From positions 1 through 60,071 of IMG/VR virus record IMGVR_UViG_3300012202_000001: 60,071 nt of DNA; one strand, 5' to 3'. Shown here piece by piece: positions 2,021 to 59,086 of the stretch (its first letter is position 1; every line of letters starts with the position of its first letter). The notes beneath the pieces are model-generated. The model did no database searches. It was given only the letters and a program-made list of their open reading frames with translations, and was not told where the DNA came from. The DNA comes from a virus. Both the position numbers and the translations under genes were made by a program.

Positions 2021-2348
2021 AAACTTATCTCCATAGGTGGGACATTCCCTTTTGGTTCTAAGGGGATTTGCCTCTCCTGCGAGGGAGAGAGCAAGCTTTC
2101 ATGTTTAGCTGAGTGTTTACGTTCTTGAACGCACGTCTGCTTAGTCTCTTTACAGTCTCTCGACTGCACCAATGAGGACCGGGGCGCATGTCCCTTTTGC
2201 CAGATCTACCACTGGCGCGGAGCCCGGATTTCGCAGATTTGTGGATTCTTCCTGTGCCTTGCAGGTAACGTTTTGAGAGCGGCCCGTTGTTTTTCGGAAA
2301 AGCGACTTGCCGCGAAGCAACCGTCTGGGGTAGGATTCGGGCAGTCCC

Positions 2349-2413
2349 GTTTCTGACCCAGAAACACTCAGATCAAGCAAGAAGCCCACGCGCTTAACGT
2401 GGGCTGTTTTTTT
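2349..2413 (+). terminator. Rho-independent terminator with a preceding hairpin
   Basis: AGCCCACG (2383-2390) pairs with CGTGGGCT (2398-2405), followed by G and seven T residues, so it acts on rightward transcription. Just upstream, GTTTCTG (2349-2355) pairs with CAGAAAC (2359-2365) across a three-base loop. No rightward gene lies before it, so a short non-coding transcript from within 2021-2349 is the simplest explanation. Confidence 0.8.
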
Positions 2414-2466
2414 GCAAAAATTATTCCGTGTTGAATTAAGCAGTGTCATGAGGAGATCGGGAGATC

Positions 2467-2501
2467 GCCCTAGGCATCCGGATCTCTACGGCGCCTAGGG
2501 C
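2467..2501. promoter_or_regulatory. 9-bp inverted repeat, possible operator or hairpin
   Basis: GCCCTAGGC (2467-2475) and GCCTAGGGC (2493-2501) are perfect reverse complements 17 bases apart. Each half carries CCTAGG, itself a palindrome. There is no T-run, so it is not a terminator. The place between divergent operons suggests an operator. Confidence 0.5.
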
Positions 2502-2509
2502 AATTATTT

Positions 2510-2527
2510 CGTTCACGGATGTGAACG
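2510..2527. promoter_or_regulatory. 7-bp inverted repeat, possible operator
   Basis: CGTTCAC and GTGAACG are perfect inverted arms around GGAT. The size and spacing suit a dimeric repressor, possibly the ribbon-helix-helix protein encoded 380 bp downstream. Confidence 0.5.
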
Positions 2528-2679
2528 TCACCGTTTGTACGATACCGAACGAATCCTGTCAATAGCCTTCTCAGGCACTCTTGCACAGGATTTCCACAGG
2601 AATGGGTACGCTAACGGACTGTCAATGGTCGGCCTGTTCTAATACCATCCCTACCCGAGAAAGGATTTCATACTTGCCT

Positions 2680-2859
2680 ATGAACTCCCCACGTCCCAGT
2701 TACGAGTATTGGCGCATGACTCTCCGTATCGATGCCCGACGCCACGGCAAGCTAACCGTTGTGGATAACTTGGGCGACTTCGTGCTCATGATGTTTTACG
2801 AAGAAGGCGCCGAGCCCAGCATTGACGGGCTTCTCCGCGCATCTGAAGGACCAGCCTAA
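2680..2859 (+). CDS. Small hypothetical protein, 59 aa
   Basis: The ATG at 2680 was chosen over a TTG at 2581. The N-terminal extension from 2581 is Cys/Thr-rich and unlike the rest, and an AAAGGA lies about 14 bases before this ATG. The protein has a predicted strand-helix-strand pattern (RMTLRIDARR, LTVVDNLGDFVLMMFYEEG) and no recognised family. It is the first gene of the rightward operon. Confidence 0.55.
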   Translation: MNSPRPSYEYWRMTLRIDARRHGKLTVVDNLGDFVLMMFYEEGAEPSIDGLLRASEGPA

Positions 2860-2904
2860 ACTCACGGTTGACAGCGCGGTAATCTTGGCGTACGTTTGCC
2901 AACG

Positions 2905-3075
2905 ATGACCGCGCACGGCACACAATTTCCTGAAAACATCAATCTTCGGGTTACGACCATCCTCTACCGAGCCGTAGAGAAACTGGCCAAGGACGAAAAA
3001 CGGCCTATCGGGATGATGGCGCGGATCCTTGTGGAAGAAGCTGTCGAAAGTCGAAACGGAAAGAAGAAACGGTGA
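2905..3075 (+). CDS. Ribbon-helix-helix regulator, 56 aa
   Basis: Residues 10-20 form a likely beta strand (NINLRVTTIL). They are followed by two helices (RAVEKLAKDEK and IGMMARILVEEAVESR) split by a short turn, which is the Arc/CopG ribbon-helix-helix pattern. Such proteins bind operators as dimers. The stop overlaps the GTG start of the next gene as GTGA. Autoregulation at the inverted repeats near 2467-2527 is a reasonable guess. Confidence 0.75.
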   Translation: MTAHGTQFPENINLRVTTILYRAVEKLAKDEKRPIGMMARILVEEAVESRNGKKKR

Positions 3076-3533
3076 GTTACGAGGATACGCGCGTCTCCGT
3101 TGCTGATTCCCAGGGTGGAATCAGGAAGATTGTCTACGCTCACAAGGGGACCGGGATTAGCTTTGTCTCGCAGCCGCCGCGCGAGGGCTTCGAAGCGTTG
3201 GTGACGATGAAGGACCAGTCGTACCACATTCGGGTCATGGCGACTTGCCAGGATGCGCGCACTCACACAAGAGCGGGATTCAGACGTCGCACGCAAAACA
3301 TGATTGACAGCGACAAACTGCAAGAGGAGCGGCGAGTGTGGCGTGTCCTCTACTGGCACCTGAAGGCCATGTTTGAAGCCGCGGATTCCGGAGTGATCGC
3401 AGTCGAGGACATCATCATGCCCTACATTGTGACTCCGGACGGGCGCACGATCGCCGAGCACGTTGCTCCCAAGCTGGCCGAGATGCGCGAGTTTACGCAC
3501 GACAAACTACTCACCGCAGGGGGATTAATGTAA
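3072..3533 (+). CDS. Hypothetical protein, 153 aa
   Basis: Starts with GTG at 3072 inside the previous stop. No known domain. It contains a basic central segment (TRAGFRRRTQNMI) and a helical, acidic C-terminal half. Its stop shares one base with the next start (TAATG). It belongs to the recombination module that ends with the Bet-like annealase. Confidence 0.75.
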   Translation: MSYEDTRVSVADSQGGIRKIVYAHKGTGISFVSQPPREGFEALVTMKDQSYHIRVMATCQDARTHTRAGFRRRTQNMIDSDKLQEERRVWRVLYWHLKAMFEAADSGVIAVEDIIMPYIVTPDGRTIAEHVAPKLAEMREFTHDKLLTAGGLM

Positions 3534-3928
3534 TGGCCGTGAAAAAGAAAGCAGCGAAGACTAGCCGCAAAAAGGGAGCCGTCCATAAACCAGCCAAGCG
3601 GATTCCGCGCCAGCAGATTATCCCAGGCGTCGGGGACGAGAAGATTGCAGCCATCGAGAATGCCGCGTTGGACTATGCCGAGATTCGCGACCAGCGGCAA
3701 GCATTGACCGCTCAGGAAGTGGATTTAAAAAAGAAGCTACTCGATCTCATGCACAAGAAAGAACTGACCGAGTACAAGCGAAATGGGATCTCGGTGAAGG
3801 TTGTCTTGGAACAGGAGAACGTAAAGGTGCGCGTGAGAGAGTCGGAGGATGATCTTCCCGCCGACATCGGGCCGGCGCCGGATGCGGATGTGAGTGCAGA
3901 CTCGGTTGCAGTTGATTCAGAAGGGTAG
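3533..3928 (+). CDS. Coiled-coil hypothetical protein, 131 aa
   Basis: Lys/Arg-rich tail at residues 2-28, then a coiled coil (about residues 38-75) and an acidic, Ala/Asp-rich C-terminus. Small coiled-coil proteins of this build commonly accompany single-strand annealing systems in phages. A nucleic-acid-binding accessory role is inferred from composition and neighbours. Confidence 0.75.
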   Translation: MAVKKKAAKTSRKKGAVHKPAKRIPRQQIIPGVGDEKIAAIENAALDYAEIRDQRQALTAQEVDLKKKLLDLMHKKELTEYKRNGISVKVVLEQENVKVRVRESEDDLPADIGPAPDADVSADSVAVDSEG

Positions 3929-4722: not shown

Positions 4723-5404
4723 AATTATCGAGCAGGAACAGGAACTCAAGCAGCAAGCTTTGACGGTTGTGGAACGCGCTACTCTGGTAAAGATCACCGA
4801 CCAGACGAGCTATGATGCGGCGTGCGACCTATTGCAGAAAGAAATAGTTCCGTTCAGAAAGAAGTGGGCAGACTACTGGAAGCCGCTAACAACTGCGGCC
4901 TGGGGCGCGTACAAAAAGGTTCAGGACAAATTCAAAGAAGGCGATGAGCCGGCAGAGAAAGCCGAGCGCTGGGTCAAACATGCAATCAGGGTGTGGGACG
5001 ATGAACAGATTCGAATTGAGCAGGAACAACAGCGTAAAGCGCAGGAAGCGGCTGAGAAAGTCGCAGAGGAGGAACGTCTACGTGCGGCAATTGTTGCGGA
5101 AGAAGCTGGAGCGAATGAGGCAGAAGTATCCGCAATCGTCGATGCTCCTGTTGTTGTCGTTGCAGAACCTGTCGTTCCTGCGTACAGCCGAACAGCCGGA
5201 ATCAGCCGGCGTGAGAACTTTAAGGCAAAGGTCGTGGATCTCCATGCGCTCGTAAAGGCGGCTGCCAAGGACAAGGCTCTACTGGCCTACTTGGAGCCAA
5301 ATCAGACTGCGCTAAATAATCGCGCTAAAGCTGACCGGCAGACGCTCAATATACCCGGAGTAGTTCCCTACAATGACGCTATTGTGTCCGCGAGAGGGCG
5401 ATGA
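4715..5404 (+). CDS. Helical recombination-module protein, 229 aa
   Basis: Long charged helices (residues 1-130, with runs of Glu/Gln/Arg), a Val/Pro-rich hinge near 145-160, then a small C-terminal domain ending in IPGVVPYNDA. Proteins of this design often stand between exonuclease and annealase genes in siphovirus and podovirus recombination operons. Overlaps its upstream neighbour by 8 bp. Function not established. Confidence 0.75.
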   Translation: MPEIIEQEQELKQQALTVVERATLVKITDQTSYDAACDLLQKEIVPFRKKWADYWKPLTTAAWGAYKKVQDKFKEGDEPAEKAERWVKHAIRVWDDEQIRIEQEQQRKAQEAAEKVAEEERLRAAIVAEEAGANEAEVSAIVDAPVVVVAEPVVPAYSRTAGISRRENFKAKVVDLHALVKAAAKDKALLAYLEPNQTALNNRAKADRQTLNIPGVVPYNDAIVSARGR

Positions 5405-5898
5405 GTTTTACGGCAAAAGATTTAACGGGTCTTGTCTTCGGGCGCTACATAGCCATGTGGCCCGTTGGGCGTCGCGGAAATCCAAGCCGAATCATGTATC
5501 TCTGCGCTTGCAGATGTGGGCAAATTCGTTTAGTGGAAAGTAGCGGTCTGACACTGGGAAGGAATCGCAGTTGTGGCTGTTTACGAATGGATGCACTGAA
5601 GGCCGGCGTGCGTCGGGTACATGGTCATCGTGCTTCTGCGAGCCCGACATACCAGTCTTGGAAAGGAATGATTGGCAGATGCGAGTATCCAAAGCATGTA
5701 GGGTTTAAGAATTACGGAGGTCGTGGGATAAAGGTTTGTACGCGCTGGCGTAATTCGTTCTCTCGATTTTTGTCTGACATGGGACTAAGGCCACGCGGAA
5801 AAACGATCGATCGCATCAACAATAACGGGAATTACGAACCGTCGAATTGCAAGTGGGCCACTCGAAAAGAACAGCGTGCCAACCAGAGGAGGGTGTAG
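5401..5898 (+). CDS. HNH-like homing endonuclease with zinc ribbon
   Basis: N-terminal zinc ribbon (CACRCG, then RSCGC), followed by NYGGRGIKVCTRW and [17 protein letters not shown]. This is the signature of a common phage family usually annotated as HNH or AP2-like endonucleases. Starts at an ATGA overlap with the upstream gene and ends three bases before the annealase start. It thus sits inside the recombination operon without breaking any gene. Related to the gene at 28309-28839. Confidence 0.8.
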   Translation: MSFTAKDLTGLVFGRYIAMWPVGRRGNPSRIMYLCACRCGQIRLVESSGLTLGRNRSCGCLRMDALKAGVRRVHGHRASASPTYQSWKGMIGRCEYPKHVGFKNYGGRGIKVCTRWRNSFSRFLSDMGLRPRGKTIDRINNNGNYEPSNCKWATRKEQRANQRRV

Positions 5899-6994: not shown

Positions 6995-7426
6995 ATGCCG
7001 AGAAGGAAGAAGATCAAAGTGACGCGCCGGAAAAACGAATTTAGCCGTGCTCTGCAAGCCGCCAAATCAGTTCTGAAGGCGAAGACCAAGCAGCGCGACC
7101 GCATGATGACGGAGTTACGGCAGTTGAATACCGATATTCCGAGTCTGGAACGCACGGTGAGAGCATTAGAAGCGCAACTTGGGGGCACAGGTGCGGTCGG
7201 TCCGCTTACGTCCCAGACCGACAGTAGGCAAGTGGGTGGAGTGCCCCCAAAGGTCCACATTCGGCCAATGTTGGACTCGGAATCTGGTATTCCGCAAGAA
7301 GTTCTCGCCCAGCTTCCCCCAGAAGACTTCTCCAGGTTTGGATCCCACTTCGGGGAAGAGGCGCCGGAGAAAGAGGATTACCTGCCGGAGATCGTAGGGA
7401 AAGAAGTCATACCGGAGAAAAAGTAA
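6995..7426 (+). CDS. Coiled-coil hypothetical protein, 143 aa
   Basis: Very basic N-terminus, a coiled coil at residues 18-62, then a Gly/Pro linker and an acidic C-terminus. Shares one base with the next start (TAATG). Probably belongs to the recombination module; no family recognised. Confidence 0.7.
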   Translation: MPRRKKIKVTRRKNEFSRALQAAKSVLKAKTKQRDRMMTELRQLNTDIPSLERTVRALEAQLGGTGAVGPLTSQTDSRQVGGVPPKVHIRPMLDSESGIPQEVLAQLPPEDFSRFGSHFGEEAPEKEDYLPEIVGKEVIPEKK

Positions 7427-7743
7427 TGAATCGCAAGCCAAAAGCTAAGTGGATAAAATTCATTCATCCCCTCGGTGGCGGCGACTGGTATCACTGGGGA
7501 GATCTTTCGGTGTGTGTTGCGAAAGAAGAAGGCTTCTGGCATATTTCGATCTCTCTGCCCTATCGCTATCCGACTTGGGATGAAATTTTAGCCGCTTGGT
7601 ACGATCTGGTTCCCGGCGCCTGTGAAGACTTCGAGGGAGCCATCATCCTTCCGCGCAAGAGTGAGTACGTCAACATACATCCCAACTGCTTTCACGTTCA
7701 CCAACTTAATGATTCGGAGATTCCATCCAGCATCATCCTATGA
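7426..7743 (+). CDS. Small conserved phage protein, 105 aa (DUF7694-like)
   Basis: Compact alpha/beta protein with WHISISLPYRYPTWDEI in the middle and a C-terminal EYVNIHPNCFHVHQL segment. I recall this pattern from a small phage family of unknown function (probably DUF7694). ATGA overlap with the glycosyltransferase that follows. Confidence 0.7.
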   Translation: MNRKPKAKWIKFIHPLGGGDWYHWGDLSVCVAKEEGFWHISISLPYRYPTWDEILAAWYDLVPGACEDFEGAIILPRKSEYVNIHPNCFHVHQLNDSEIPSSIIL

Positions 7744-8942
7744 GCCCGACTCCGCTTCTCTTCCTCAGTGACGATCCAACCTCCGGCACCGGCCTAGGCC
7801 GCATCACGCGCGACTTGGCGACTCGCGTTCACAAGTACCTTCCCGACAAGTTCCGCGTGGCGACCTGTGGCTATGGGGGAAACTTTTCCCGCGAACTCGG
7901 CTTCCCGCAGTACTCCATCAAGATGCAGGACTGGGTTTGCTACAACCTGCCCGAGATATGGAAAGACTTTGCCGGCGATGAGCACGGCATCCTCATGCCG
8001 ATTTGGGATTGCTCCCGCTTGCTGTGGCTGGCCCGTCCTGAAAATTGCGAAGACCCTCGCCTGAGAGAATTTCTGCAGGAAAAACATTTCGACACTTGGA
8101 CCTATAGTCCGATGGATGCGCACGGAGTCGACGGCAAGCTTACAGGCGTGCTGAAACACACGCTGGAGGGATTCGATCGCGTGCTGGCGTATTCCAAGTG
8201 GGCTTACGACATTCTGGAAAAGACGCTCGACAAGAGCCGCTTCAACGATATTGACTGGCGCCCACACGGCATCGATACGAGCATCTGGTATCCCCGCAAA
8301 CGTATCGTCGCGCGGCATGGGTTTGGAGACAAGTTGGGAGCCAAGGACTTCCGTAACAAGGTCACGCGTATTCCCGATGACGCTTTCCTGATTGGCATCG
8401 TGGCAACGAATCAGGCACGCAAGGACTGGGGACTAGGAATGTCGGTCATCGCCGAGATCGCGAAGCAGCGCAATACGTGGTGCTGGCTGCATACCGACCG
8501 GCTGGAGAATGCCTGGAGCATCCCGATTTTGAGCCAGTGGGATTTTAAGATTCATGAGAAGGCCATCGTTACTACCGTCGACTATAGCGACGACAAACTC
8601 GCGTGGGCGTACTCAGCGTGTGACCTTACCTTGGGCATCGGCGCAGGGGAAGGCTTCGGTTTTCCGATATTTGAATCACTGGCTTGTGGAACACCATGTC
8701 TCCACGGCAGGTATGGTGGTGCACCGGAACACATGCCAGATTGTATGTTAGTCGATCCTTTCTTCCACCGAATTGATGGGGTTTACAGCTTAATGCGTCC
8801 CTGCTATCGCGTTGAAGACTGGGTCGAAAAAGCAAATGCACTGCTTGGCGTTAAAAGTGCTTTATCGATGCTTCCCGCTCACCTAGATTGGTCTAATCTC
8901 TGGCCGTCATGGGAAGAATGGTTTGAGAAGGGTTTGAAATGA
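7740..8942 (+). CDS. GT-B fold glycosyltransferase (GT4 type), 400 aa
   Basis: N-terminal SGTGLGRITRDLA resembles the acceptor-side loop of GT4 enzymes. The C-terminal half carries EGFGFPIFESLACGTP, with the donor-binding E-x7-E pair (E304/E312), and then GGAPEHMPD. Such enzymes transfer a sugar from a nucleotide donor with retention. It opens the glycan island and overlaps both neighbours by 4 bp. The acceptor (virion protein, DNA or host glycan) is not determined by the sequence. Confidence 0.85.
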   Translation: MSPTPLLFLSDDPTSGTGLGRITRDLATRVHKYLPDKFRVATCGYGGNFSRELGFPQYSIKMQDWVCYNLPEIWKDFAGDEHGILMPIWDCSRLLWLARPENCEDPRLREFLQEKHFDTWTYSPMDAHGVDGKLTGVLKHTLEGFDRVLAYSKWAYDILEKTLDKSRFNDIDWRPHGIDTSIWYPRKRIVARHGFGDKLGAKDFRNKVTRIPDDAFLIGIVATNQARKDWGLGMSVIAEIAKQRNTWCWLHTDRLENAWSIPILSQWDFKIHEKAIVTTVDYSDDKLAWAYSACDLTLGIGAGEGFGFPIFESLACGTPCLHGRYGGAPEHMPDCMLVDPFFHRIDGVYSLMRPCYRVEDWVEKANALLGVKSALSMLPAHLDWSNLWPSWEEWFEKGLK

Positions 8943-9619
8943 GGCCCCTCGTCTACATCGTCGCGTCCCGCGGATGGGCCGGTTTCATGGACTGCATCAG
9001 AACGTGGATTGACACTGCCTCAACTCCCTACAACGTGCATATCTCGATGGGTTTGGATGTGATGCCGGCGCTACAGCAGGGATACGAAAGCACAACGGAA
9101 CCGATTCTTTGTTACCTTCACGACGATTTCAAGATTTTGGAGGACAATTGGGACGCTCGCGTTCTCAAGGAGTTTAATGATCAGTCTGTGGGAATGGTGG
9201 TTACTTGTGGAGCAAGAGGTCACGGAGTTCGACATCTATATGAAACGCCGTATCACCTTCCCAACTTGGCGCGACAGAACTTCATGTCAAACATGGTCGA
9301 TGCCGAAGTGCATGGCGAACGATTCACCGGAGAGCGTGATGTTGTAGTAGGAGACGGAATGGCGTTATTCGTACGGCGGACGATCTTAGACAAGGTAGGT
9401 GGTTGGCCGGTGGATAAACCCGTGGGGTACTGGCTATATGCCGAATGGCTTACTTGTGAGACTCGGCGGCAGGGTTTCAGAATTCGTCTTGTGGGCATTA
9501 AGTGTCAACACTTGGGCGGAAAATCTTCCGGCTTTATCTCGCCTTCGATCTCGTACGAAGAGGCCCACCGATGGTTGTTTGAAAACAATCGGGATGTGTT
9601 ACCAGCATGGGTGGAGTAG
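8939..9619 (+). CDS. GT-A type glycosyltransferase-like protein, 226 aa
   Basis: A YLHDDF motif at about residue 60 fits the metal-binding acidic cluster of GT-A enzymes. A later WLYAEWLTCETRRQGFRI segment resembles their C-terminal acidic motif region. Short for the family, with no membrane segment, so likely cytosolic. Coupled to the GT4 gene by an ATGA overlap. Confidence 0.7.
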   Translation: MRPLVYIVASRGWAGFMDCIRTWIDTASTPYNVHISMGLDVMPALQQGYESTTEPILCYLHDDFKILEDNWDARVLKEFNDQSVGMVVTCGARGHGVRHLYETPYHLPNLARQNFMSNMVDAEVHGERFTGERDVVVGDGMALFVRRTILDKVGGWPVDKPVGYWLYAEWLTCETRRQGFRIRLVGIKCQHLGGKSSGFISPSISYEEAHRWLFENNRDVLPAWVE

Positions 9620-9677
9620 AATCAGGGCCGTCAGGTGTTGAAGCACCGGCAAAGCCTATCGCTACGAAGGAGCGAAT

Positions 9678-10169
9678 ATGACGACCCCGAGCACATCTTA
9701 CCGCACGATCGAACTCACCCAAGGGAAAGTAACAATCGTTAACGAGAAGCACTACGATTGGCTTTCGCAGTGGAAATGGTGTGCTCAACGCAATAATGAC
9801 AATTTTTATGCAGTGAGAACTTTCTGGATCGGTAATCATTGTTTCGGCTTAAAAATGCACCGCGTCATTCTTGGCCTGACTGCCGGTGATAAGCGCCTCG
9901 TCGATCATGTCAATTTAGATGGACTTGATAATCGAGAAGAGAACTTAAGAATCGCGACAACATCCAAGAATGCAATGAATAGACATGTTACGAAAATAAG
10001 TAAAAGCGGTCTTAAGGGAGTATTTTTCTATCGGGGAAAATGGAGAGCATCGATTGGACTGAACAACCGCGACATTTTTCTGGGTGATTATGCAACAACC
10101 GAACTTACTCATGAGGCATACTGCGAAGCAGCAGCAAAATATCACGGCAAGTTCGCGAGGTTTGCATGA
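9678..10169 (+). CDS. HNH/AP2 homing endonuclease
   Basis: Contains the HNH core LVDHVNLDGLDNREENLRIA and a C-terminal AP2-like DNA-binding domain (SGLKGVFFYRGKWRASIGL, FLGDY). GGAG is nine bases before the ATG. Its stop overlaps the start of the radical SAM gene as ATGA. A second HNH gene begins at the other end of that gene, so the radical SAM gene is bracketed by mobile endonucleases. Confidence 0.85.
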   Translation: MTTPSTSYRTIELTQGKVTIVNEKHYDWLSQWKWCAQRNNDNFYAVRTFWIGNHCFGLKMHRVILGLTAGDKRLVDHVNLDGLDNREENLRIATTSKNAMNRHVTKISKSGLKGVFFYRGKWRASIGLNNRDIFLGDYATTELTHEAYCEAAAKYHGKFARFA

Positions 10170-11608
10170 AGGTCTGTTTAGTGACACCCCCGAGCGGATT
10201 TTTGCTAGATCAGCGTGTGTTTATGAGTTTAGGTATTTTGAAGGTGGGGGCAGTTCTGGAACAGGCAGGACACGAGGTCGATCATCTCGATCTCTCAGGA
10301 GTATCGAACTATGAGGATATTTGCCGGGATTATCTGCGCACTGGTAGCAATCCGGCTGGTGTGGTTTACGCGATCACTGCTACGACTCCTCAAATGCCAG
10401 CAGCGATCCGTATTCGTGAAGTCCTCGGAGGCAAGTGTATTATGGGTGGACCACATCCTACCCTGCTCGCTGCCGCCGCCAAGCGAGGGAACGCAAGAGC
10501 CATCAAAGCCCTGGGACATCTACTCGATGCGTTTGACACTATTGTGGCCGGCGATGGAGAAAGAGCCATCTTCCGAGCGCTCAAAGAGTACGGACTGATC
10601 GACGCGGACGATCCGAAGAGTGACCTGTGGCAAACCTCTAAGGATTTCACCGATTCCCCTTGGCCGGCACGTCACCTTGTTGATGTAAAGAGTTATCACT
10701 ACACGATTGACGGAGAGCAAGCCATTCATTTAATCGGGCAATTAGGATGCCCGATGTCATGCACGTTTTGTGCAGGAAGAAACAGTCCGATGCTACGACG
10801 TATGAGACTTCGTACTCCGGAAAACATTGTCGCGGAAGTGCTCCATTTACACGATAAGTACGGATTCAAGGGCTTCAATTTTTTCGATGACGAACTAAAT
10901 ATAAACAAACTGCTTCCCACTCTCTTGCGCGGTTTGATAGAGGCTGCGCGAGATCGAGGAGTGGAGTGGCGGCTGCGAGGTTTTATTAAGGCGGAACTGT
11001 TTACAGAAGAACAAGCTGCGCTCATGTACGAAGCTGGCTTCCGTTGGATACTGATCGGATTCGAGAGTGGATCTGATCGCATTCTCACAAACATCGAGAA
11101 GCGTGCGACGAAAGCGGAGAATACGCATGCCATGCAAATTGCGCACGATCACGGACTGAAGGTTAAGGCACTAATGAGCATTGGCCATGCTGGAGAGTCA
11201 GAACAGACCGTTCGGGATACCTACGATTGGCTTATCGAAACGAGGCCAGATGATCTGGACGTCACGGTAATTACGCCATATCCAGGAAGCCCGTACTGGG
11301 ATGAAGCTGTCGAAGTTGACGGAGGTATGTGGAGGTACAGCGCACACAAGACAGGCGATTATCTCTACATGGAAGAGATCGACTTTAGCGCCGTGGCCGA
11401 TTTTTATAAGGGCGTGCCCGGTGAGTACGTTAGCCATGTGTGGACCGATGCGCTAGCGGCTACTGAATTGTGTGAATTGAGAGACTGGTGCGAGTTCGAT
11501 TCCAAAGCAAGATTAGACATCGCCCTTCCACAGTCGGCAGCAGCGGTAATGTACGACCATTCAACAGGAATGACACCAGCCATCCTTCGTTCGTCGGTGA
11601 GTAAATGA
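10166..11608 (+). CDS. Radical SAM enzyme with N-terminal B12-binding-like domain, 480 aa
   Basis: Residues 1-150 have the Rossmann-like pattern of B12-binding domains (MKVCLVTPPS, GGKCIMGGPHPTLLA, IVAGDGE). The iron-sulfur ligands are C195, C199 and C202 in CPMSCTFC. The TIM-barrel follows, with FFDDELN and IGFESGSD. Relatives methylate unactivated carbon or phosphorus, or build sugars and antibiotics, but many are uncharacterised. In this island, C-methylation or other modification of a glycan is inferred. Confidence 0.85.
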   Translation: MKVCLVTPPSGFLLDQRVFMSLGILKVGAVLEQAGHEVDHLDLSGVSNYEDICRDYLRTGSNPAGVVYAITATTPQMPAAIRIREVLGGKCIMGGPHPTLLAAAAKRGNARAIKALGHLLDAFDTIVAGDGERAIFRALKEYGLIDADDPKSDLWQTSKDFTDSPWPARHLVDVKSYHYTIDGEQAIHLIGQLGCPMSCTFCAGRNSPMLRRMRLRTPENIVAEVLHLHDKYGFKGFNFFDDELNINKLLPTLLRGLIEAARDRGVEWRLRGFIKAELFTEEQAALMYEAGFRWILIGFESGSDRILTNIEKRATKAENTHAMQIAHDHGLKVKALMSIGHAGESEQTVRDTYDWLIETRPDDLDVTVITPYPGSPYWDEAVEVDGGMWRYSAHKTGDYLYMEEIDFSAVADFYKGVPGEYVSHVWTDALAATELCELRDWCEFDSKARLDIALPQSAAAVMYDHSTGMTPAILRSSVSK

Positions 11609-12114
11609 ATATGGGACGACCAAAACTAGATGACAACGGCACGCTGGCGGCGATTTGGGAAAGAACTATTAAAACGAAGCGTTGCTGGCTTTATGGAAAG
11701 ACTGACCGTTATCACTTTTTGAAACATGAAGGCAAGACAACGACCGTACATCGGTTCATCTACAAGATGACTGTCGGATCGGTCCCCGACGAACTAGACG
11801 TTTGTCACCGTTGTGATAATCGTCAATGTATTCGTCCAAGCCATCTCTTCCTTGGCACACCCGCAGAAAATAGTGCCGATATGGTCAAGAAGGGTCGCGC
11901 TGCTACAGGTAGTCGAAACGGAAAATCCACACATCCAGAAGCTACTCCACGCGGAGAAAAAGTAGGGACTGCAAGATTAACCGCACAGGATGTCGTTAAG
12001 ATCAGAGCCCTGCGATCTCAGGGATTGACATATCAAGAGATTGGGAAAACTTTTAACGTGCATCTGAGCACGGTAGCCTACGCTCTCACAAAGAATTGGA
12101 AGCACGTCGCATGA
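11605..12114 (+). CDS. HNH homing endonuclease with C-terminal helix-turn-helix
   Basis: HNH_3-type core: VCHRCDNRQCIRPSHLFLG, then a NUMOD-like linker and a C-terminal helix-turn-helix (GLTYQEIGKTFNVHLSTVAYAL) that presumably recognises the target. It starts inside the stop of the radical SAM gene (ATGA). A 73-bp gap follows before the next glycosyltransferase; I see no further gene there. Confidence 0.85.
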   Translation: MNMGRPKLDDNGTLAAIWERTIKTKRCWLYGKTDRYHFLKHEGKTTTVHRFIYKMTVGSVPDELDVCHRCDNRQCIRPSHLFLGTPAENSADMVKKGRAATGSRNGKSTHPEATPRGEKVGTARLTAQDVVKIRALRSQGLTYQEIGKTFNVHLSTVAYALTKNWKHVA

Positions 12115-12187
12115 ATATTCCATTTTACGAAATACGAACAGCGCTTCTGTAAGTACGTTTGCGGACTGACAAACCAGCGAGGATCAA

Positions 12188-12910
12188 ATGAATGTTAATG
12201 CGACGTTCCTAGTTTGCAATCGTCCCAGACTCACGCAACAAGCACTGCTTTCTCTCGGCCCCACTGACGATGACGTGATGACCGTCACCGTCAGCGAAGA
12301 CAGCAAGTGCAACGATGAGACCCAAAAGGTATTGAGTGATTGGTATCAGTCCAACCCCAAGAATAGACATCTCTGCGGACACACCGCAGAGTACGGAACC
12401 GGATCACTGCGCAATCAAGTCATCGCAGCCAGTGAAAAATACTTTAACCGTGGAAGTCACCTCTACCTCAGTGATAACGACGTGTTCTTCTATCCTGCCA
12501 TTTTCGAAAAGCTGGTTCCGATCTATGAATACGCCTGGACTTTGGGATTTAAGGTACTGGGTGCCTACAATCATCCGTTCCATCAGCCGATAAATTCGAC
12601 TCCGGTCTATGGCGGCGGGAGAGCGATCATCTCGCGGGTCAACGAAGTGCATGCGCTCGCGCTGCAATCCATGCTCATGAAGTGGGAAGTGTGGGACAAG
12701 TACGGGCCTTTTGACGACACTCCAGTGGGACGGGTCCGCATGAGCGAGGACGTTGCTTTCACCAACAAGATCAAAGCTGATGGCGGACGTATCGGAGTGG
12801 TGAGCCCTGCGCTGGCAGTGAACACCGGCATCACCGACAGTTTCGGGGAAAAGATTCCCGGTTGGGAGATTGTCCAGAAGGAAGCACCGTTCGGGGTGTA
12901 CTTCGAATGA
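12188..12910 (+). CDS. GT-A fold glycosyltransferase, family 2 type, 240 aa
   Basis: Starts with NATFLVCNRPRLTQQALLSL, the usual family 2 opening. YLSDNDVFF gives the DxD-type metal site, and MSEDVAFTNKIKADGG gives the acidic motif of the catalytic base. Probably adds a sugar with inversion. AGGATC precedes the ATG. Stop/start overlap (ATGA) with the methyltransferase that follows. Confidence 0.8.
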   Translation: MNVNATFLVCNRPRLTQQALLSLGPTDDDVMTVTVSEDSKCNDETQKVLSDWYQSNPKNRHLCGHTAEYGTGSLRNQVIAASEKYFNRGSHLYLSDNDVFFYPAIFEKLVPIYEYAWTLGFKVLGAYNHPFHQPINSTPVYGGGRAIISRVNEVHALALQSMLMKWEVWDKYGPFDDTPVGRVRMSEDVAFTNKIKADGGRIGVVSPALAVNTGITDSFGEKIPGWEIVQKEAPFGVYFE

Positions 12911-13470
12911 GTCTGCCCACGTTTGATGACGCGATGGTCCTCACGAGCACGATCAGCAATATCTACTGCTTGCAGGTGGTGGAGTGCTTAGCGATGTATG
13001 AAACACTCTGCGAACTGCCGGAAGCAGCGACCGTGGTTGAAGTGGGATGTGACTATGGGCGTTCTTCAAGCCTGATTTTTCAGATGGCGAAAGCGAAAAA
13101 TTTCCTAACCATCCATATCGACCCTTGGCAGTCGAACCCAGACCGCGGAAAAGACTGGATGACGGTCATGTGTGAACGCTGTTCCTACCACCCGTTTATT
13201 TTGCTGCGCATGACCACGGAAGAAGCGGCGCCGTTTATCGAGCAACTGACCCCTCAAGGAATCGATCTCGCTTTCATCGATGGATCTCACGATCAACCTG
13301 TCGTTGAAAACGATATGAAAATAGTCGCCTCTCGCGTCAAGCCAGGGGGATTTCTTACCGCGCACGATTACCCGTCAGGAGGAGTTTCAGAGGCAATCGA
13401 TCCATTCGTTCGAAATGGATGGAGCAAACACAAGCAAGCTGGCGGATTCGGAGTGTGGAAGAGACTGTGA
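12907..13470 (+). CDS. Class I SAM methyltransferase, sugar O-methylation type (copy 1)
   Basis: Motif I is VVEVGCDYGRSSS (residues 43-55). FIDGSHDQ at 123-130 and FLTAHDY near 149-155 match Methyltransf_24-like enzymes such as CmcI and sugar O-methyltransferases. The ATG at 12907 overlaps the previous stop; the longer frame from 12862 is not needed. First of three paralogues in this island (with 13467-14045 and 14713-15273). Confidence 0.8.
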   Translation: MSLPTFDDAMVLTSTISNIYCLQVVECLAMYETLCELPEAATVVEVGCDYGRSSSLIFQMAKAKNFLTIHIDPWQSNPDRGKDWMTVMCERCSYHPFILLRMTTEEAAPFIEQLTPQGIDLAFIDGSHDQPVVENDMKIVASRVKPGGFLTAHDYPSGGVSEAIDPFVRNGWSKHKQAGGFGVWKRL

Positions 13471-14045
13471 ATACTGACGAACTGCTCGCTCTGGCTACTT
13501 CCATTGAAGGCCAGGGCTTCGCCGACGAGCCGAAACAGGTTTGCACTTACACCAGTTTCGAACTGAGATTGATAGCAAACTGCCTTCTGGAACTGCCTTA
13601 TGGCTCGCGCGTGCTGGAGATTGGAGTTTATGGCGGACGCTCAACTTCTCTCCTGTTCCAACTGCAGAAAGAACTCGGACTGGACATTCACCTGATCGAC
13701 AATTGGTCCTGGGATTCTGTGCGAGCGCTGCGCATATTCACCACGATGGTGCTCGAACACTTTAGCGAAGTTCCATTCACGTTGCACAAGATGCGAAGCG
13801 ACTACGCCGGTGCATACAAATGGTGTGAGCCCGTTGGATTTCTTCACATTGACGGCTGGCATGAAATGCCGGGGATTGAGTCCGACTGTCAACTATTTCT
13901 GCCTTGGGTCATATCAGGTGGAACCGTAGCGTTCCATGACTGTGATTATCTGCCGGTTGAGCAGTGTATTGACAAGTACGTACGCAACGCGGGATGGCAG
14001 CAGCTTGAAAGCGCAGGACGTTCGACCACTTGGAGAAAGCCGTGA
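13467..14045 (+). CDS. Class I SAM methyltransferase, sugar O-methylation type (copy 2)
   Basis: Begins with GTG in a GTGA overlap. Motif I is VLEIGVYGGRSTS (residues 49-61). FLHIDGWHEMPGIESD and GGTVAFHDCDY align with the same segments of copies 1 and 3. The histidine and aspartates after the IDG element are typical of metal-assisted O-methyltransferases of this group. Paralogue by duplication, or a separate acquisition; identity looks modest. Confidence 0.8.
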   Translation: MNTDELLALATSIEGQGFADEPKQVCTYTSFELRLIANCLLELPYGSRVLEIGVYGGRSTSLLFQLQKELGLDIHLIDNWSWDSVRALRIFTTMVLEHFSEVPFTLHKMRSDYAGAYKWCEPVGFLHIDGWHEMPGIESDCQLFLPWVISGGTVAFHDCDYLPVEQCIDKYVRNAGWQQLESAGRSTTWRKP

Positions 14046-14716
14046 ACCTAGCGGTAATCACACCTTGCCTGTATCCGGACACGGCGCGCATTCATTACCT
14101 CATAGACTCATGCGCCAAGCATAATGTCTCGCTCTCGTTCCACGGAAGAGGAGAGGTCTTCGGCGGCTGGAGTGCGATGCTCATGCGCTACACGCTCCCG
14201 CACATGCGGTCGTTGGCTGAACAAGGTTACTCCCATGTTCTCTTTGTGGACGCTATCGATTCTTTGTTCGTTGCCGGCATTAACGAGATTGCAGCCAAGT
14301 ATGAACGGCTTTGCGGAGACCACTCAACTTTAATCTCGGGCGATTCCGACCCGACTCCGCGCGGCGTCTACATTGACCCTGGACCGTGGAAATATTTAAA
14401 CGGAGGCGGGTATATCACGCCAATCGCGCCGTGGGTGTGCATGATTGAAAACCTGCACGAACTCTATCCCGAAGAAGGAAACTATCAAGTGTGGCTTGAA
14501 AAGCATTGGCCGCTCCCTGATTCCTATGTCGATTACGATTGCAAAATCTTTCAGCCGATGGACGGGAATCCTGCCGTAATGCCGGTCGGAGGGCGAGTGC
14601 TCAACGCGCTTACCGGATCCTGGCCTTGTATCCTGCATTTCCGCGGCGGCTATTGTGATCCTGTGACCGGGAGAGATGAACGAATGAAACCTTGGGTAGA
14701 GGCGCTTACACGATGA
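14042..14716 (+). CDS. Glycosyltransferase-like protein with PLOD/GT25-like motifs, 224 aa
   Basis: GTG start in a GTGA overlap. The order of motifs HVLFVDAIDSLF (DxD-like metal site) and PWKYLNGGGYITP resembles glycosyltransferase domains of the PLOD/GT25 kind. A C-terminal CILHFRGGY supplies a histidine often used as a metal ligand. Donor and acceptor unknown. Confidence 0.65.
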   Translation: MNLAVITPCLYPDTARIHYLIDSCAKHNVSLSFHGRGEVFGGWSAMLMRYTLPHMRSLAEQGYSHVLFVDAIDSLFVAGINEIAAKYERLCGDHSTLISGDSDPTPRGVYIDPGPWKYLNGGGYITPIAPWVCMIENLHELYPEEGNYQVWLEKHWPLPDSYVDYDCKIFQPMDGNPAVMPVGGRVLNALTGSWPCILHFRGGYCDPVTGRDERMKPWVEALTR

Positions 14717-15273
14717 CCTTCGAACAGGTGATGGAGTTCACGCGCGGAGTAAGCGCTCCGGATGCGTTTCAGGATGTCGAGTGCAAAGCTTTCTACGATG
14801 CTTTGCTGCATGTCCGGCCTGGGGGGATCGTAGTCGAGATCGGATGCCAGCTTGGGCGGTCATCGTCGATCATTGCGCAGATGCAGCCGGTCATCCACTA
14901 TCACGCCATTCATATTGACCCGTACACCGAGCAACCAGATTACCTGCGCGGCTGGACTGACATGATGTGGAGAGTCGGGAACCGGGACCATGAGTTTACC
15001 TTGATGTGTATGCGCACCGAGCAAGCCGAATGGCTTCTCAGCAGGATTGGCGAGATCGATCTAGCGTTTGTCGACGGAGACCACGAGTACCCATCGGTGA
15101 TGATCGATTTGAAGCTGGTCGCGGAGAGAGTGCGGCGGGGCGGGTATCTGACAGCGCATGATTTATCGAATGAAGGCTTGCCGGGAGTGAGCAAGGCTCT
15201 CGGAGAGTATATCGATGCGAAGTGGCACACGGTCGGGACCTTCGGCAGTCTGGGAGTGTGGATCAAAATATGA
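14713..15273 (+). CDS. Class I SAM methyltransferase, sugar O-methylation type (copy 3)
   Basis: Motif I is VVEIGCQLGRSSS (residues 40-52). IDLAFVDGDHEYPSV and GGYLTAHDLS match copy 1 closely in order and spacing. ATGA overlap at the start and another at the end. Likely methylates a hydroxyl on the glycan made by the neighbouring transferases. Confidence 0.8.
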   Translation: MTFEQVMEFTRGVSAPDAFQDVECKAFYDALLHVRPGGIVVEIGCQLGRSSSIIAQMQPVIHYHAIHIDPYTEQPDYLRGWTDMMWRVGNRDHEFTLMCMRTEQAEWLLSRIGEIDLAFVDGDHEYPSVMIDLKLVAERVRRGGYLTAHDLSNEGLPGVSKALGEYIDAKWHTVGTFGSLGVWIKI

Positions 15274-15779
15274 TCGGGCTCAACGTAGGCAGCGGACAGC
15301 GACCCTTTCATTCCACAAAAGAAGTGACGTGGATCAATATCGACTCACAGCCGAAATGGAATCCGGATGTGCTGTGCAGCGGTGTGGATCTTCCCTACTC
15401 CGGCTCTACGGTCGATTACGTTGTCCTGCATCACGTCTTAGAACACTTCGGATGCGGCGAAGGTGAAGGGCTGGTAAAAGAGGCTTACCGCGTGCTCAAG
15501 CCGGGAGGATCGCTACTCGTCTTCGTCCCAGACTTGAAGAAACTCGCGGTGGGATGGCTCAACAGCCAAATATCAACTCAGATCTACATGACGAATCTCT
15601 ACGGCGCCTACATGGGAAGTGAAGACGATCGCCACAAGTGGGGCTTCGACGTCACCAGCCTGTACAACTTTCTAAGGTCTTGTGCTGCATGGAAAGCCGT
15701 ACACGCAGGAACCCCGAACCTCCCCGGCGCCGATATTGCGAGGGATTGGTGGATCCTTGAAATGGAGTGCGTGAAATGA
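15270..15779 (+). CDS. Class I SAM methyltransferase (Methyltransf_11 type), 169 aa
   Basis: Motif I LNVGSGQRPF is at residues 4-13, VVLHHVLEHF in the middle, and VLKPGGSLLVFVPDL after it. This set is typical of small methyltransferases within O-antigen and capsule clusters. The distinct subfamily from copies 1-3 suggests a different site or a dehydratase-like use. A 64-bp gap with a strong stem-loop follows. Confidence 0.75.
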   Translation: MIGLNVGSGQRPFHSTKEVTWINIDSQPKWNPDVLCSGVDLPYSGSTVDYVVLHHVLEHFGCGEGEGLVKEAYRVLKPGGSLLVFVPDLKKLAVGWLNSQISTQIYMTNLYGAYMGSEDDRHKWGFDVTSLYNFLRSCAAWKAVHAGTPNLPGADIARDWWILEMECVK

Positions 15780-15797
15780 CGCTTAGGCTGGAAAAGT

Positions 15798-15828
15798 GTC
15801 CCAAAACTGTCCCAAATAGTTTTGGGAC
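15798..15828. promoter_or_regulatory. 11-bp stem-loop between island genes
   Basis: GTCCCAAAACT (15798-15808) pairs perfectly with AGTTTTGGGAC (15818-15828). The 9-base loop itself repeats GTCCCAAA. No T-run follows on the plus strand; on the minus strand ACTTTT follows. It may be a weak terminator for antisense late transcription, an attenuator or a protein site. Confidence 0.6.
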
Positions 15829-15843
15829 GGGGAAAAGCCCTCG

Positions 15844-16593
15844 ATGAACGGCATTCTGACACTGACCCGCAATAACCTCGCCCTCACCCAGCGAGCAATT
15901 CACTCTTTCTTGCGCCAAGACATCGTGACAGTCGTAATGGCAATCGACAACGGGAGCACAGACGGGACCGTCCCCTGGCTGAAAGCTTACGGCTGCCTTC
16001 TCCGTGCCGAGCCGGAGAATCGCGGGGTGAGTGCCGGCTGGAATTGTGGCCTTAAAATGTTCTTTGAAGCCGGCGCCGAAAATGTTCTTGTCGTAGGCAA
16101 CGATACGTGGCTTCCGCCCTACTTCTACCGGGAACTGCTCTCTTACAACCTGCCGTTCATGACTGGAGTAGCCGTCGACAACATGGAGCAGGTACAGCCG
16201 AAGCCCAGCAAGGCTCCTCTGGACCCGCATCCTGATTTTTCCGCCTACTGCATCCGTAAACGAATCTGGACAGAGGTCGGACCCTTCGATGAGCGCATGA
16301 AGCATTACGCCTCGGATTGCGATTGGCACATTCGGGCTCACCGCAAGTCTTATGGTCTGTGGAAAGCATCGTGTGAGTTTTACCACGAACGGTCGAGCAC
16401 GCTCAGGAATGCGTCTCCGGAAGATGCGCAGCAGATTCAGGAACAGGCGAACAAGGATCGGATGACGTTTCAGGCGCTCTACAATTGCCTACCAGGGCAA
16501 CCGGAGTACGAGGCGATATTCGCACAAAGCCCAGAGCCGCAGAAGGTTCCTTCTCGGGTATCGAATGACAACACTTTAGAAACCGGCACTTAA
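15844..16593 (+). CDS. Family 2 glycosyltransferase, 249 aa
   Basis: Canonical opening (ILTLTRNNLALTQRAIHSFL), AIDNGSTDGT for the nucleotide, GNDTW for the metal site and FDERMKHYASDCDWHIRA for the acidic catalytic region. Rhamnosyltransferase-like enzymes share this layout. Last gene of the rightward operon. Its final 190 bp are overlapped on the other strand by the leftward gene at 16403-17437, with no terminator seen between them. Confidence 0.85.
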   Translation: MNGILTLTRNNLALTQRAIHSFLRQDIVTVVMAIDNGSTDGTVPWLKAYGCLLRAEPENRGVSAGWNCGLKMFFEAGAENVLVVGNDTWLPPYFYRELLSYNLPFMTGVAVDNMEQVQPKPSKAPLDPHPDFSAYCIRKRIWTEVGPFDERMKHYASDCDWHIRAHRKSYGLWKASCEFYHERSSTLRNASPEDAQQIQEQANKDRMTFQALYNCLPGQPEYEAIFAQSPEPQKVPSRVSNDNTLETGT

Positions 16594-17437
16594 CCGGCCA
16601 ATCGCAGCCCGTCAACTGCAGCGGTGGCTTCTCTTTCATATTCTTGATGGTCTCCAACTTGCGCATGGCGATGTCGAGAAAGTACGTGCGCTGCCACTGG
16701 GGAAGCGCCGGCATCTCTACCCGGTAGACCAGATCGCGCATGACATCATCTTTCAGCATGGCATTGAGCCACGTTTCGCGGCTGATTTCTTCGTGATCCT
16801 CGCGCCAGATCTCCACCCAGGACTCTTTGAATCCGGCATTGACCGTACCCACTCGCCGGCGAAAGCGGATGTGGGTGTGCCCGATTACATGCTTGAGCGC
16901 CTTGGTCCAGTAAGAGTGCCGGCGCCCGTTCCGTTCCTGGCCGATCACCAGCACAATCAAACTCATGGGCAGGTTGTAGGCCGCCATTTCCCCCAGCGTG
17001 AACCAGTTGCGGCATTCCGAGTAGTGCCGGTCATCGTTCCAGTGGGAGACCAGTACAATGCGCCGCAGCTTGTCGCCTTCCGGGGACATTAGACAAGAAG
17101 AAGTCCAATTTTGGACTCTTTCTGGAACCACCCAGGGCTTGTCTGCCGCCTTGCGTAAAGTCGTTACCAGAAGGTCGGCTAGGTGGGCATGATTCATGGC
17201 ACAGGCGTAGACCACCTCGCCGTCTACTTCGATTCCAGGGGAAGTAGCCAGATCTAGGACAGTTTCCCCCGCTATCTGCCCCCAGGAAGCCCTCTCCTCG
17301 CATTCCTGTGCCGTCAGGACTCGATATAGGGTTTCGCGTAGGGTTTCGGTCGTGGAGAGCTTATTTCGCTTCCAGCGGCGCCAGAACGGGATGCGGGGGC
17401 AGGTTTCTAAGCCACTTAACAGTTCAGGGGAAGTCAT
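16403..17437 (-). CDS. Hypothetical late protein, 344 aa
   Basis: ATGA overlap with the upstream 843-aa gene supports the start. The central part is ordered (IVLVSHWNDDRHYSECRNWF, SLIVLVIGQERNGRRHSYWTKALKHVIGHT); the last 60 residues, antisense to the glycosyltransferase gene, are Cys/Pro-rich and may not be conserved. Carries one copy of the 16-bp repeated site. Last gene of the late region. No family recognised. Confidence 0.7.
   Translation of the reverse strand: MTSPELLSGLETCPRIPFWRRWKRNKLSTTETLRETLYRVLTAQECEERASWGQIAGETVLDLATSPGIEVDGEVVYACAMNHAHLADLLVTTLRKAADKPWVVPERVQNWTSSCLMSPEGDKLRRIVLVSHWNDDRHYSECRNWFTLGEMAAYNLPMSLIVLVIGQERNGRRHSYWTKALKHVIGHTHIRFRRRVGTVNAGFKESWVEIWREDHEEISRETWLNAMLKDDVMRDLVYRVEMPALPQWQRTYFLDIAMRKLETIKNMKEKPPLQLTGCDWPVKCRFLKCCHSIPEKEPSAALGFVRISPRTPVALVGNCRAPETSSDPCSPVPESAAHLPETHS
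17102..17117. repeat. 16-bp near-palindrome, copy 1
   Basis: AGTCCAATTTTGGACT: 7-bp inverted arms (AGTCCAA/TTGGACT) around TT. The same 16-mer occurs at 50545-50560 and, inverted, at 58582-58597. It lies inside coding sequence. Confidence 0.9.
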
Positions 17438-22916: not shown

Positions 22917-23447
22917 ATGCCACGCATGAAGAACCTGCAGGAAGAATGGCGTCCAGTAATAGGGTATGAAGGACAATATGAAGTGTCCAACTCTGGACGC
23001 GTAAAAAGCCTTAAACGTAATGCTCAAATGGGTCTTTACGTAACCAAACCGCGCGGCTATCTCGGTGTCGTTCTTCATAACAACGGAGTTCGGAAAGCAC
23101 ACTTCGTCCATACTCTTGTAGCCGCAAGTTTCATCGGACCCAAGCCCAAGGGTAATTTCGTCAACCATAAGGACGGGAAAAAGCCGAACAACGTTCCCTT
23201 GAATCTGGAATATGTAACAGCCAGCGAGAATGCGCGTCATGCTTGGCGTTTGGGCTTGTACACACCGCACACACCTAAAGGAGAAGCGAGCCATTTTTCG
23301 AAGCTCACCGAAAAAGACGTCAGAGATATTCTGGAAAAAACCAAAGAAGGATGGTCCCTCAATCAACTCAAAAGACACTTCAACGTGAGTCGCGTTACAA
23401 TCTGCCGCATTCGCACTCGCAAAACGTGGACTCATCTCAGACCTTAG
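22917..23447 (+). CDS. NUMOD4/HNH homing endonuclease, inserted against the late operon
   Basis: EEWRPVIGYEGQYEVSNSGR is a clear NUMOD4 element. The HNH core is VNHKDGKKPNNVPLNLEYVT, and a C-terminal helix-turn-helix follows (NQLKRHFNVSRVTICRI). The ATG may be 22917 or 22926; the frame upstream of 22917 is antisense to the neighbouring gene. It runs on the plus strand within minus-strand genes, and its stop overlaps the end of the NHL gene by 11 bp. Confidence 0.85.
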   Translation: MPRMKNLQEEWRPVIGYEGQYEVSNSGRVKSLKRNAQMGLYVTKPRGYLGVVLHNNGVRKAHFVHTLVAASFIGPKPKGNFVNHKDGKKPNNVPLNLEYVTASENARHAWRLGLYTPHTPKGEASHFSKLTEKDVRDILEKTKEGWSLNQLKRHFNVSRVTICRIRTRKTWTHLRP

Positions 23448-28340: not shown

Positions 28341-28839
28341 CAGCCCCCCACTTCCTTCGATTTCTAGACTGCTCTTTTACTGTGGCCCAACAACAGTTGC
28401 TTGGTTCGTAGTTTCCATTGTTGTCAATTCGCTCAATCGACATCCCGTCTGGACGTGGACCCATGTCATCTCGAAAGTTTGGAAAAGAATGCTGCCAGCG
28501 TTTACACATCCGAATTCCACGTCCGCCATACAGGTAATAGTCTTTCGACTTGCGGTTGTAGCATCGACGCTTAATCGCGCTCCACACACCATATAAAGCC
28601 GTGTTCGTTTGCCCATGCACATATTTCCGTCGTGCAGAAAGTTCCCGTCTCAAACACCCGCAACTTTTCGTATGGCCGCCCTTTAATGCAGTCGCAAATA
28701 CTGTCGTCAGCTTTTTGCAATCGCAATGGCATAACCATCTCGCCGGAGATCGTGCGACAAGTTTCTTTACTACCAACCTGCCGAATCTTCGTTTCCGTAA
28801 ATCCTCCGGAACAACATCAGGGCGAGTTCGTTTTTGCAT
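28309..28839 (-). CDS. HNH-like homing endonuclease with zinc ribbon (second copy of family)
   Basis: Same family as 5401-5898: CHCDCKK...CGCLRRE zinc ribbon, [16 protein letters not shown] and [17 protein letters not shown]. Inserted between structural genes in the direction of the operon. The two copies are diverged in their N-terminal halves, so separate acquisitions are as likely as duplication. Confidence 0.8.
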
Positions 28840-58564: not shown

Positions 58565-59086
58565 CTAGAACGTGGTATCGGAGTCCAAAATTGGACTAAA
58601 AGGCAGCGACGTGCCGGGAGGTAGATCGGGCTTCTTCGCCTTGCGTCGAATCTCCTGCAAAGCTTTTACCGTGTTCGGGTAAGCGAAGGCTTGCTGGAAG
58701 TGTTTTAGGGTGATCTCTTCTTCTCGGATGGTCCAGCGATTCAGCCGTTCGTCTTTCTTCCAAGAATGGATCATGATTCGGGCGCCGGCCAGGAGAACGA
58801 GTTTGGCTTCAAACGACGACAAAACTTTGTTCCGGCGCGTGGCGTGATTGGCTGCGCTGGTCACCTGCACGTAGATGCGCTCTTGCTTCTGGGGATGCTC
58901 TGCGATCAGATCGAAGCAGTTCCACAGATCAACCTTGATTTCGACCAGGGGCGCATGTCCGCACGCTCGACAGGGAACTCGTTTGGCTGGATCCTTTGGC
59001 GGGAATCGTTTGATCGATTCAACCGTGGCGACGAGATAGCCTTCATCGGCGAGGAGTTCGCGCGATCGTACCTGGGGAGTGCTCAT
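58565..59086 (-). CDS. PD-(D/E)XK-like nuclease, 173 aa
   Basis: VDLWNCFDLIAE, then RIYVQVTSAANHATRRNKVL and RIMIHSWKK, resemble phage proteins of the VRR/PD-(D/E)XK type with D-...Q/E-x-x spacing. C-terminus is Pro/Thr-rich and carries one copy of the 16-bp repeat. ATGA overlap with the methyltransferase. Catalytic residues are not all certain. Confidence 0.55.
   Translation of the reverse strand: MSTPQVRSRELLADEGYLVATVESIKRFPPKDPAKRVPCRACGHAPLVEIKVDLWNCFDLIAEHPQKQERIYVQVTSAANHATRRNKVLSSFEAKLVLLAGARIMIHSWKKDERLNRWTIREEEITLKHFQQAFAYPNTVKALQEIRRKAKKPDLPPGTSLPFSPILDSDTTF
58582..58597. repeat. 16-bp near-palindrome, copy 3 (inverted)
   Basis: AGTCCAAAATTGGACT, the exact reverse complement of the 16-mer at 17102 and 50545. 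Lies in the 3' end of the nuclease-like gene. Confidence 0.9.

Follow-up and report, generated by a model that had tools for sequence, protein, structure and literature searches.

A conserved phage island of glycosyltransferases, methyltransferases and a B12-type radical SAM enzyme that may build a modified glycan

The island and its genes

The record IMGVR_UViG_3300012202_000001 comes from an uncultivated soil phage and comprises 60,071 bases without end repeats, and the whole of this stretch is referred to here as the window. Between positions 7740 and 16593 on its plus strand lies an island of 12 genes encoding five glycosyltransferases (GTs), four methyltransferases, one B12-type radical S-adenosylmethionine (SAM) enzyme and two HNH endonucleases. 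From 5' to 3' the order is GT-B, GTA1, HNH, the radical SAM enzyme (rSAM), HNH, GTA2, MT24a, MT24b, a PLOD-like GT, MT24c, MT11 and GTA3. A first-pass annotation had listed ten enzyme genes, and all ten are present as full open frames, the two HNH endonuclease genes within the island having been left uncounted. It had also described the genes as mostly linked by 4-bp ATGA or GTGA overlaps, which is the case at nine of the 12 junctions counting from g7426, the other three being gaps of 58, 73 and 64 bp. The small gene g7426 (7426..7743, plus strand) matches PHROG 7839, a family of unknown function, and an ATGA overlap couples its end to the GT-B gene; the position of the operon start is uncertain.

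The family calls of that annotation have stood up well. Those of GT-B, GT-A and PLOD-like transferases are supported by profile and structure searches, that of three related sugar-type O-methyltransferases with a fourth of another class agrees with Pfam, and that of a B12-type radical SAM enzyme is borne out by Pfam domains, a CxxxCxxC motif and the fold matches of an AlphaFold model. Transferase folds and active sites, the lack of which would have counted against it, are present in the proteins tested.

Glycosyltransferases

Taken as single sequences, three of the five (GT-B, GTA2 and the PLOD-like GT) do not reach the Pfam cut-offs, and profiles made from their phage relatives were searched against PDB. 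GT-B (7740..8942, plus strand) is a GT4-like enzyme that matches the glycosyltransferase family PHROG 2170 (4.8e-21), and its family profile has chlorovirus B736L as the top PDB match (8.7e-12) with BshA next. The profile of the PLOD-like protein (14042..14716, plus strand, GTG start) matches mimivirus R699 (4.5e-31) and human LH3 (2e-28). The window sequence alone scores 18.1 bits against a Pfam cut-off of 27, and its relative in the phage L067 scores 73.2 against the same cut-off. A DxxD motif (D74, D77), an HFxG motif and H203 are invariant in 12 aligned sequences. The island protein thus belongs to the same GT-A family as R699 and LH3 and shares their DxxD metal motif, the Mn2+ ligands of R699 being D83 and D86 (PMC11838735), but it is a single GT domain of ~224 amino acids without the hydroxylase, and among the window proteins tested none has long collagen repeats.

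GTA2 (12188..12910, plus strand) is GT2-like, with a Pfam GT2 match of 0.0018 that is under the cut-off and a family profile that gives weak matches to GT structures (7e-4); the motif LSDNDV is invariant in its aligned relatives, and the protein is 83% identical (82.5%) in the phage L010. GTA1 (8939..9619, plus strand) is above the Pfam cut-off for Glyco_tranf_2_5 (5.2e-7) and has an HDD motif conserved across aligned relatives. Its family profile finds no credible PDB relative by sequence; its AlphaFold model, with a mean predicted local distance difference test score (pLDDT) of 72.7, has a GT-A fold that matches majastridin (1.2e-9), STIV A197 (1.2e-6) and GalNAc-T2. GTA3 (15844..16593, plus strand) is above the Pfam cut-off for GT2 (4.9e-10), and the PDB profile search links it to the fucosyltransferase WrtF (3.3e-7).

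Methyltransferases

All four methyltransferases are above the Pfam cut-offs, with MT24a (12907..13470; 6.7e-15), MT24b (13467..14045; 8.5e-15; a GTG start within a GTGA overlap) and MT24c (14713..15273; 2e-14) assigned to Methyltransf_24 and MT11 (15270..15779; 2.3e-9) to Methyltransf_11, all on the plus strand. The top PDB match of the Methyltransf_24 family profile is 6g7d (2.9e-19), taken here to be the mannoside O-methyltransferase MeT1 from Mycobacterium hassiacum. Only with the family profile did this match come up, as MT24c searched against PDB as a single sequence gave none. MeT1 is described in PMC9883506. Within the family G47, G51, D125, H128, D136, H153 and D154 are invariant in 19 sequences, a set that includes the SAM-binding motif and the Asp and His residues of the metal site, and the three proteins are best regarded as putative sugar-hydroxyl methylases. 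MT24a is 63% identical to a protein of L067, and MT24b is 58% identical in L021, a further phage. For MT11 the PDB profile search finds class I SAM methyltransferases (4.5e-11).

The PHROG label of DNA methyltransferase that the Methyltransf_24 proteins attract was rejected, because the match covers part of a long profile and the proteins come out as O-methyltransferases both in Pfam and with the PDB profile.

The radical SAM enzyme

The product of rSAM (10166..11608, plus strand) is above the Pfam cut-offs for both Radical_SAM (1e-23) and the B12-binding domain (8e-8), and its CxxxCxxC motif (C195-x3-C199-x2-C202) is invariant in 40 sequences. The AlphaFold model (40 sequences, pLDDT 89.8) finds its best fold match in AprD4 with paromamine (1.3e-20), followed by TsrM with cobalamin (2.7e-19) and MgmA, and its N-terminal B12-type Rossmann domain matches TsrM and OxsB. 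With AprD4, TsrM and MgmA, which are class B-like members of COG1032, it thus shares a Rossmann B12-type domain and a CxxxCxxC barrel. Identity to the solved members is 15-21%, the NCBIfam matches are to distant equivalogs only, all far below cut-off, and no characterised close member of the family was found in the NCBIfam and PDB comparisons. AprD4 acts on the sugar ring of an aminoglycoside, and the substrate of rSAM would likewise be a sugar.

The genes that surround rSAM point the same way. When the Pfam families of two genes on each side were tallied, the top families in phages (135 proteins) were GT2, GT4, methyltransferases, Glyco_transf_11, FkbM and epimerases, and those in bacteria (140 proteins) were GT2, GT4, PMT_2, methyltransferases, epimerases and amidotransferases. 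Since glycosyltransferases, methyltransferases and epimerases of nucleoside diphosphate (NDP)-sugars are the commonest neighbours in phages and bacteria alike, it is very likely that rSAM edits a sugar. The sequence would fit either C-methylation with cobalamin or an AprD4-like action.

Relatives of rSAM number at least 111 in viral contigs and at least 134 in GTDB species genomes, with Nitrospirota, Elusimicrobiota, Patescibacteria, Omnitrophota and Acidobacteriota among the bacterial carriers; the family is common in uncultivated phages, but among 50,697 public phage records there was no full-length match. A tree built from 141 sequences places the window rSAM in an all-viral clade of 20, with a Shimodaira-Hasegawa-like approximate likelihood ratio test (SH-aLRT) support of 99, and from this position the lineage has probably been long resident in phages. 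The starred branches of the tree require at least four switches between viruses and genomes. A separate observation is that the viral locus L006 has two B12-type radical SAM genes ~6 kb apart (2282-3811 and 9989-11485), the first being a distant paralogue with 26% identity.

Conservation of the island in other phages

Whether any related phage keeps the cluster bears directly on the first-pass claim, and both L067 and L021 retain the cluster and its order. The genes were located by a non-greedy hidden Markov model scan. In L067 nine enzymes stand in window order (9/9, permutation p ~1e-5), and in L021 eight of nine genes do (p ~7.5e-5), the order there being GT-B, GTA1, HNH, rSAM, GTA2, PLOD-like, MT24, PLOD-like, MT11 and GTA3. 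As gene order recurs in both, a chance arrangement is excluded. The L021 cassette is followed by the same convergent genes as in the window, whereas the flanks of L067 are unlike the window's: they hold an integrase and a DNA polymerase of family A, and the window flank proteins searched with found no match in them. One open reading frame (ORF) of L067 (4382-7249) has a uracil-DNA-glycosylase domain in frame before a DNA polymerase of that family.

Parts of the island are kept in L025, L035 and L010, the last of which is a mosaic with GT-B 84.5%, GTA2 82.5% and rSAM 60% identical to the window. The partner most often kept with rSAM is GT-B: of the 81 viral loci that have rSAM, 28 also have a GT-B relative nearby. 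Smaller, different sets occupy the same slot beside g16403 in L002, L009, L019, L020, L022, L023 and L024. These sequence comparisons show that the island is a genuine unit and that it is conserved, and the core of the cassette is GT-B with rSAM, the remainder varying among phages.

The gene that marks the slot, g16403 (16403..17437, minus strand), is a convergent flanking gene outside the island and serves as marker in eight related phages. It has no match in the Pfam or PHROG scans; a role as virion protein was considered, but the product belongs to no recognised family, and the spacing of its cysteines is a hint of a nuclease. The HNH endonucleases within the island, of the homing type, match PHROG 99 (9678..10169, plus strand; 7.6e-31) and PHROG 59 (11605..12114, plus strand; 3.3e-25), and further genes of this kind lie at 5401-5898 and 28309-28839. 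These scattered endonucleases, two of them inside the island, may help cassette exchange. A relative of the second island HNH gene also comes after rSAM in L004.

A proposed pathway and its acceptor

From the enzyme families, folds, operon, conservation and gene neighbourhoods observed, we infer the substrates, the radical reaction and the acceptor. It is proposed, at slightly better than even confidence, that during infection the phage cassette builds, within the host cytoplasm, a short, branched, O-methylated and radically edited glycan whose most likely carriers are virion proteins. The five soluble glycosyltransferases would add sugars one after another from host NDP-sugars, GT-B most likely acting at the conserved core and the GT-A enzymes branching or extending it. 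Sugar hydroxyls would receive methyl caps from MT11 and from the three Methyltransf_24 enzymes, which are metal-dependent, and the radical SAM enzyme would make one carbon-centred change to a sugar, either C-methylation or, in the manner of AprD4, the loss or rearrangement of a hydroxyl. The product would most likely be carried on head or tail proteins of the virion, with a glycan of the host surface as the next candidate. Between phages the outer genes of the cassette are swapped and GT-B and rSAM are retained, which would be expected if selection on the surface keeps changing.

Hydropathy shows no transmembrane segment in any of the ten enzymes, so the acceptor must be accessible from the cytoplasm, as DNA, a lipid-linked precursor or a virion protein that has yet to be assembled would be. 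For the key members the nearest solved proteins are glycan enzymes, namely R699 for the PLOD-like protein, B736L for GT-B, 6g7d for the Methyltransf_24 proteins and the aminoglycoside-bound AprD4 for rSAM. A virion glycan is ranked first, the host surface second and DNA third, the first place resting on the precedents of cluster O mycobacteriophages and chloroviruses. In the former, according to the available text of PMC11600133, which cites Freeman et al. 2023, three GTs lie downstream of an O-methyltransferase and both capsid and tail tube are modified. This is like the island in having phage-encoded tandem GTs that adjoin an O-methyltransferase, but there are fewer enzymes, that text mentions no radical SAM enzyme or PLOD-type GT, and the hosts and phage lineages are others. 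The chlorovirus proteins A064R and A061L build and methylate a capsid glycan, as the available part of PMC9614988 describes, and PBCV-1 (A064R, A061L, A546L/B736L; PMC9614988, PMC5408694) resembles the island in its cytoplasmic viral GTs and methyltransferases. It differs in being a eukaryotic virus with an N-linked glycan and dispersed or fused genes, with no radical SAM step in the portions available of those two accounts. Phage virion-glycosylation clusters in general are also alike, having GTs, with or without a methyltransferase, in an operon conserved among phages. The first-pass suggestion of a methylated branched sugar is still a matter of inference, and the target it gave as virion, DNA or cell surface has been narrowed towards virion protein without proof.

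Several points weigh against the proposal. The B12-binding domain of rSAM is only 0.5 bit above the Pfam cut-off (32.6 against 32.1), and AprD4, its best fold match, is not known to use cobalamin; no paper on AprD4 and cobalamin binding was found in the open-licence literature. No gene for NDP-sugar synthesis was recognised among the window proteins scanned, soluble glycosyltransferases can also use lipid-linked host precursors, and no computed result ties the island to a virion protein. With island profiles, island-type enzymes make up 21% of genes within 2 kb of rSAM in viral loci and 5% beyond 6 kb, a count that is partly circular because some of these loci also supplied sequences for the profiles; no such circularity affects the Pfam tallies.

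The strongest alternative, unlikely on balance, is that the island changes the host surface polysaccharide, for lysogenic conversion or superinfection exclusion, and not the virion. Bacterial relatives of rSAM lie beside GT2, GT4, PMT_2, epimerase and polysaccharide-synthesis genes, which are probable cell-surface glycan loci, L067 with the same cassette carries an integrase and is therefore probably temperate, and GtrB-like genes are present in acidobacterial viral operational taxonomic units (PMC11924767). However, Gtr-type clusters for O-antigen conversion have a membrane flippase and a membrane-bound GT, whereas the island, with all ten of its enzymes free of transmembrane helices, has no membrane protein, flippase or acyltransferase. 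Moreover, no integrase was recognised among the window proteins scanned, and the viruses that encode the nearest solved viral GTs decorate particles or fibres of their own.

Attachment of the glycan to bases of the phage DNA, as a hypermodification against restriction, is improbable. T4 and other phages do glucosylate their DNA and there are recombination genes (RecT-like, exonuclease) close to the island, but the bacterial homologues of rSAM are in polysaccharide-type loci. The thymidylate-synthase-family hydroxymethylase (PF00303) is absent from 12 phage records with the cassette or its core, in a search whose control was positive in 9 genomes, several of the 12 records possibly being fragments. 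There was also no Tet/JBP (PF12851) match, a weak result since the control was silent, and together the failure to find DNA-hydroxymethylation genes is weak evidence against a DNA target. Finally, a mere assortment of genes taken from hosts, unrelated and sharing no pathway, which the mosaic exchange in L010 and the interspersed HNH endonucleases might suggest, is more improbable still, given the order kept across phages with differing flanks, the tight 4-bp gene coupling and the place of rSAM within its all-viral clade.

Relatives, host and other genes of the phage

The podoviruses Tunturi_1 and Tunturi_2 infect Tunturiibacter, soil Acidobacteriota (PMC11924767), and share with the window TerL, portal, major head, scaffold, tail and virion structural proteins at ~27-34% identity and in similar order, the scaffold match being weak. 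Tunturi_1 is a distant cultured relative with shared structural genes and no glycosyltransferase annotated. A host among the Acidobacteriota is plausible.

The terminase ORF of the window (47058-49979, minus strand) encodes 973 amino acids, of which residues 329-969 match Tunturi_1 TerL and residues ~64-331 match proteins of mycobacteriophages whose annotation is portal or hypothetical; by sequence, the gene looks as if it holds an insertion, which may be an intein. In the structural module a 700-amino-acid protein (23437-25539, minus strand) has an NHL/teneurin-like beta-propeller match (7.6e-13) and is possibly a tail or host-binding protein. A DNA methyltransferase gene (PHROG 363, 4.8e-12) lies at 59083-59790 on the minus strand.

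Implications

Glycan clusters of phages and giant viruses are already known, and the island is larger than the precedents compared, is tightly coupled and recurs with differing flanks. A B12-type radical SAM core is absent from those precedents as far as their available texts go, and the open-licence literature gave nothing relevant that joins phage, radical SAM, cobalamin and glycosyltransferase. It is tentatively suggested, at somewhat less than even confidence, that this phage glycan cassette is mobile, that its radical SAM enzyme alters the carbon skeleton of a sugar made by the virus (to a C-methyl, deoxy or epimerised form), which would give virion glycans a chemistry not known from viruses, and that the enzyme family is a standard and unrecognised part of glycan loci in bacteria and uncultivated phages. 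Viral contigs with a member of the family number at least 111 and bacterial genome stretches with one at least 134, its neighbourhoods link it to glycan synthesis, and the island offers a ten-gene, possibly self-contained, set of enzymes for glycan chemistry. If the product is carried on virions, such chemically complex phage coats could alter host recognition.

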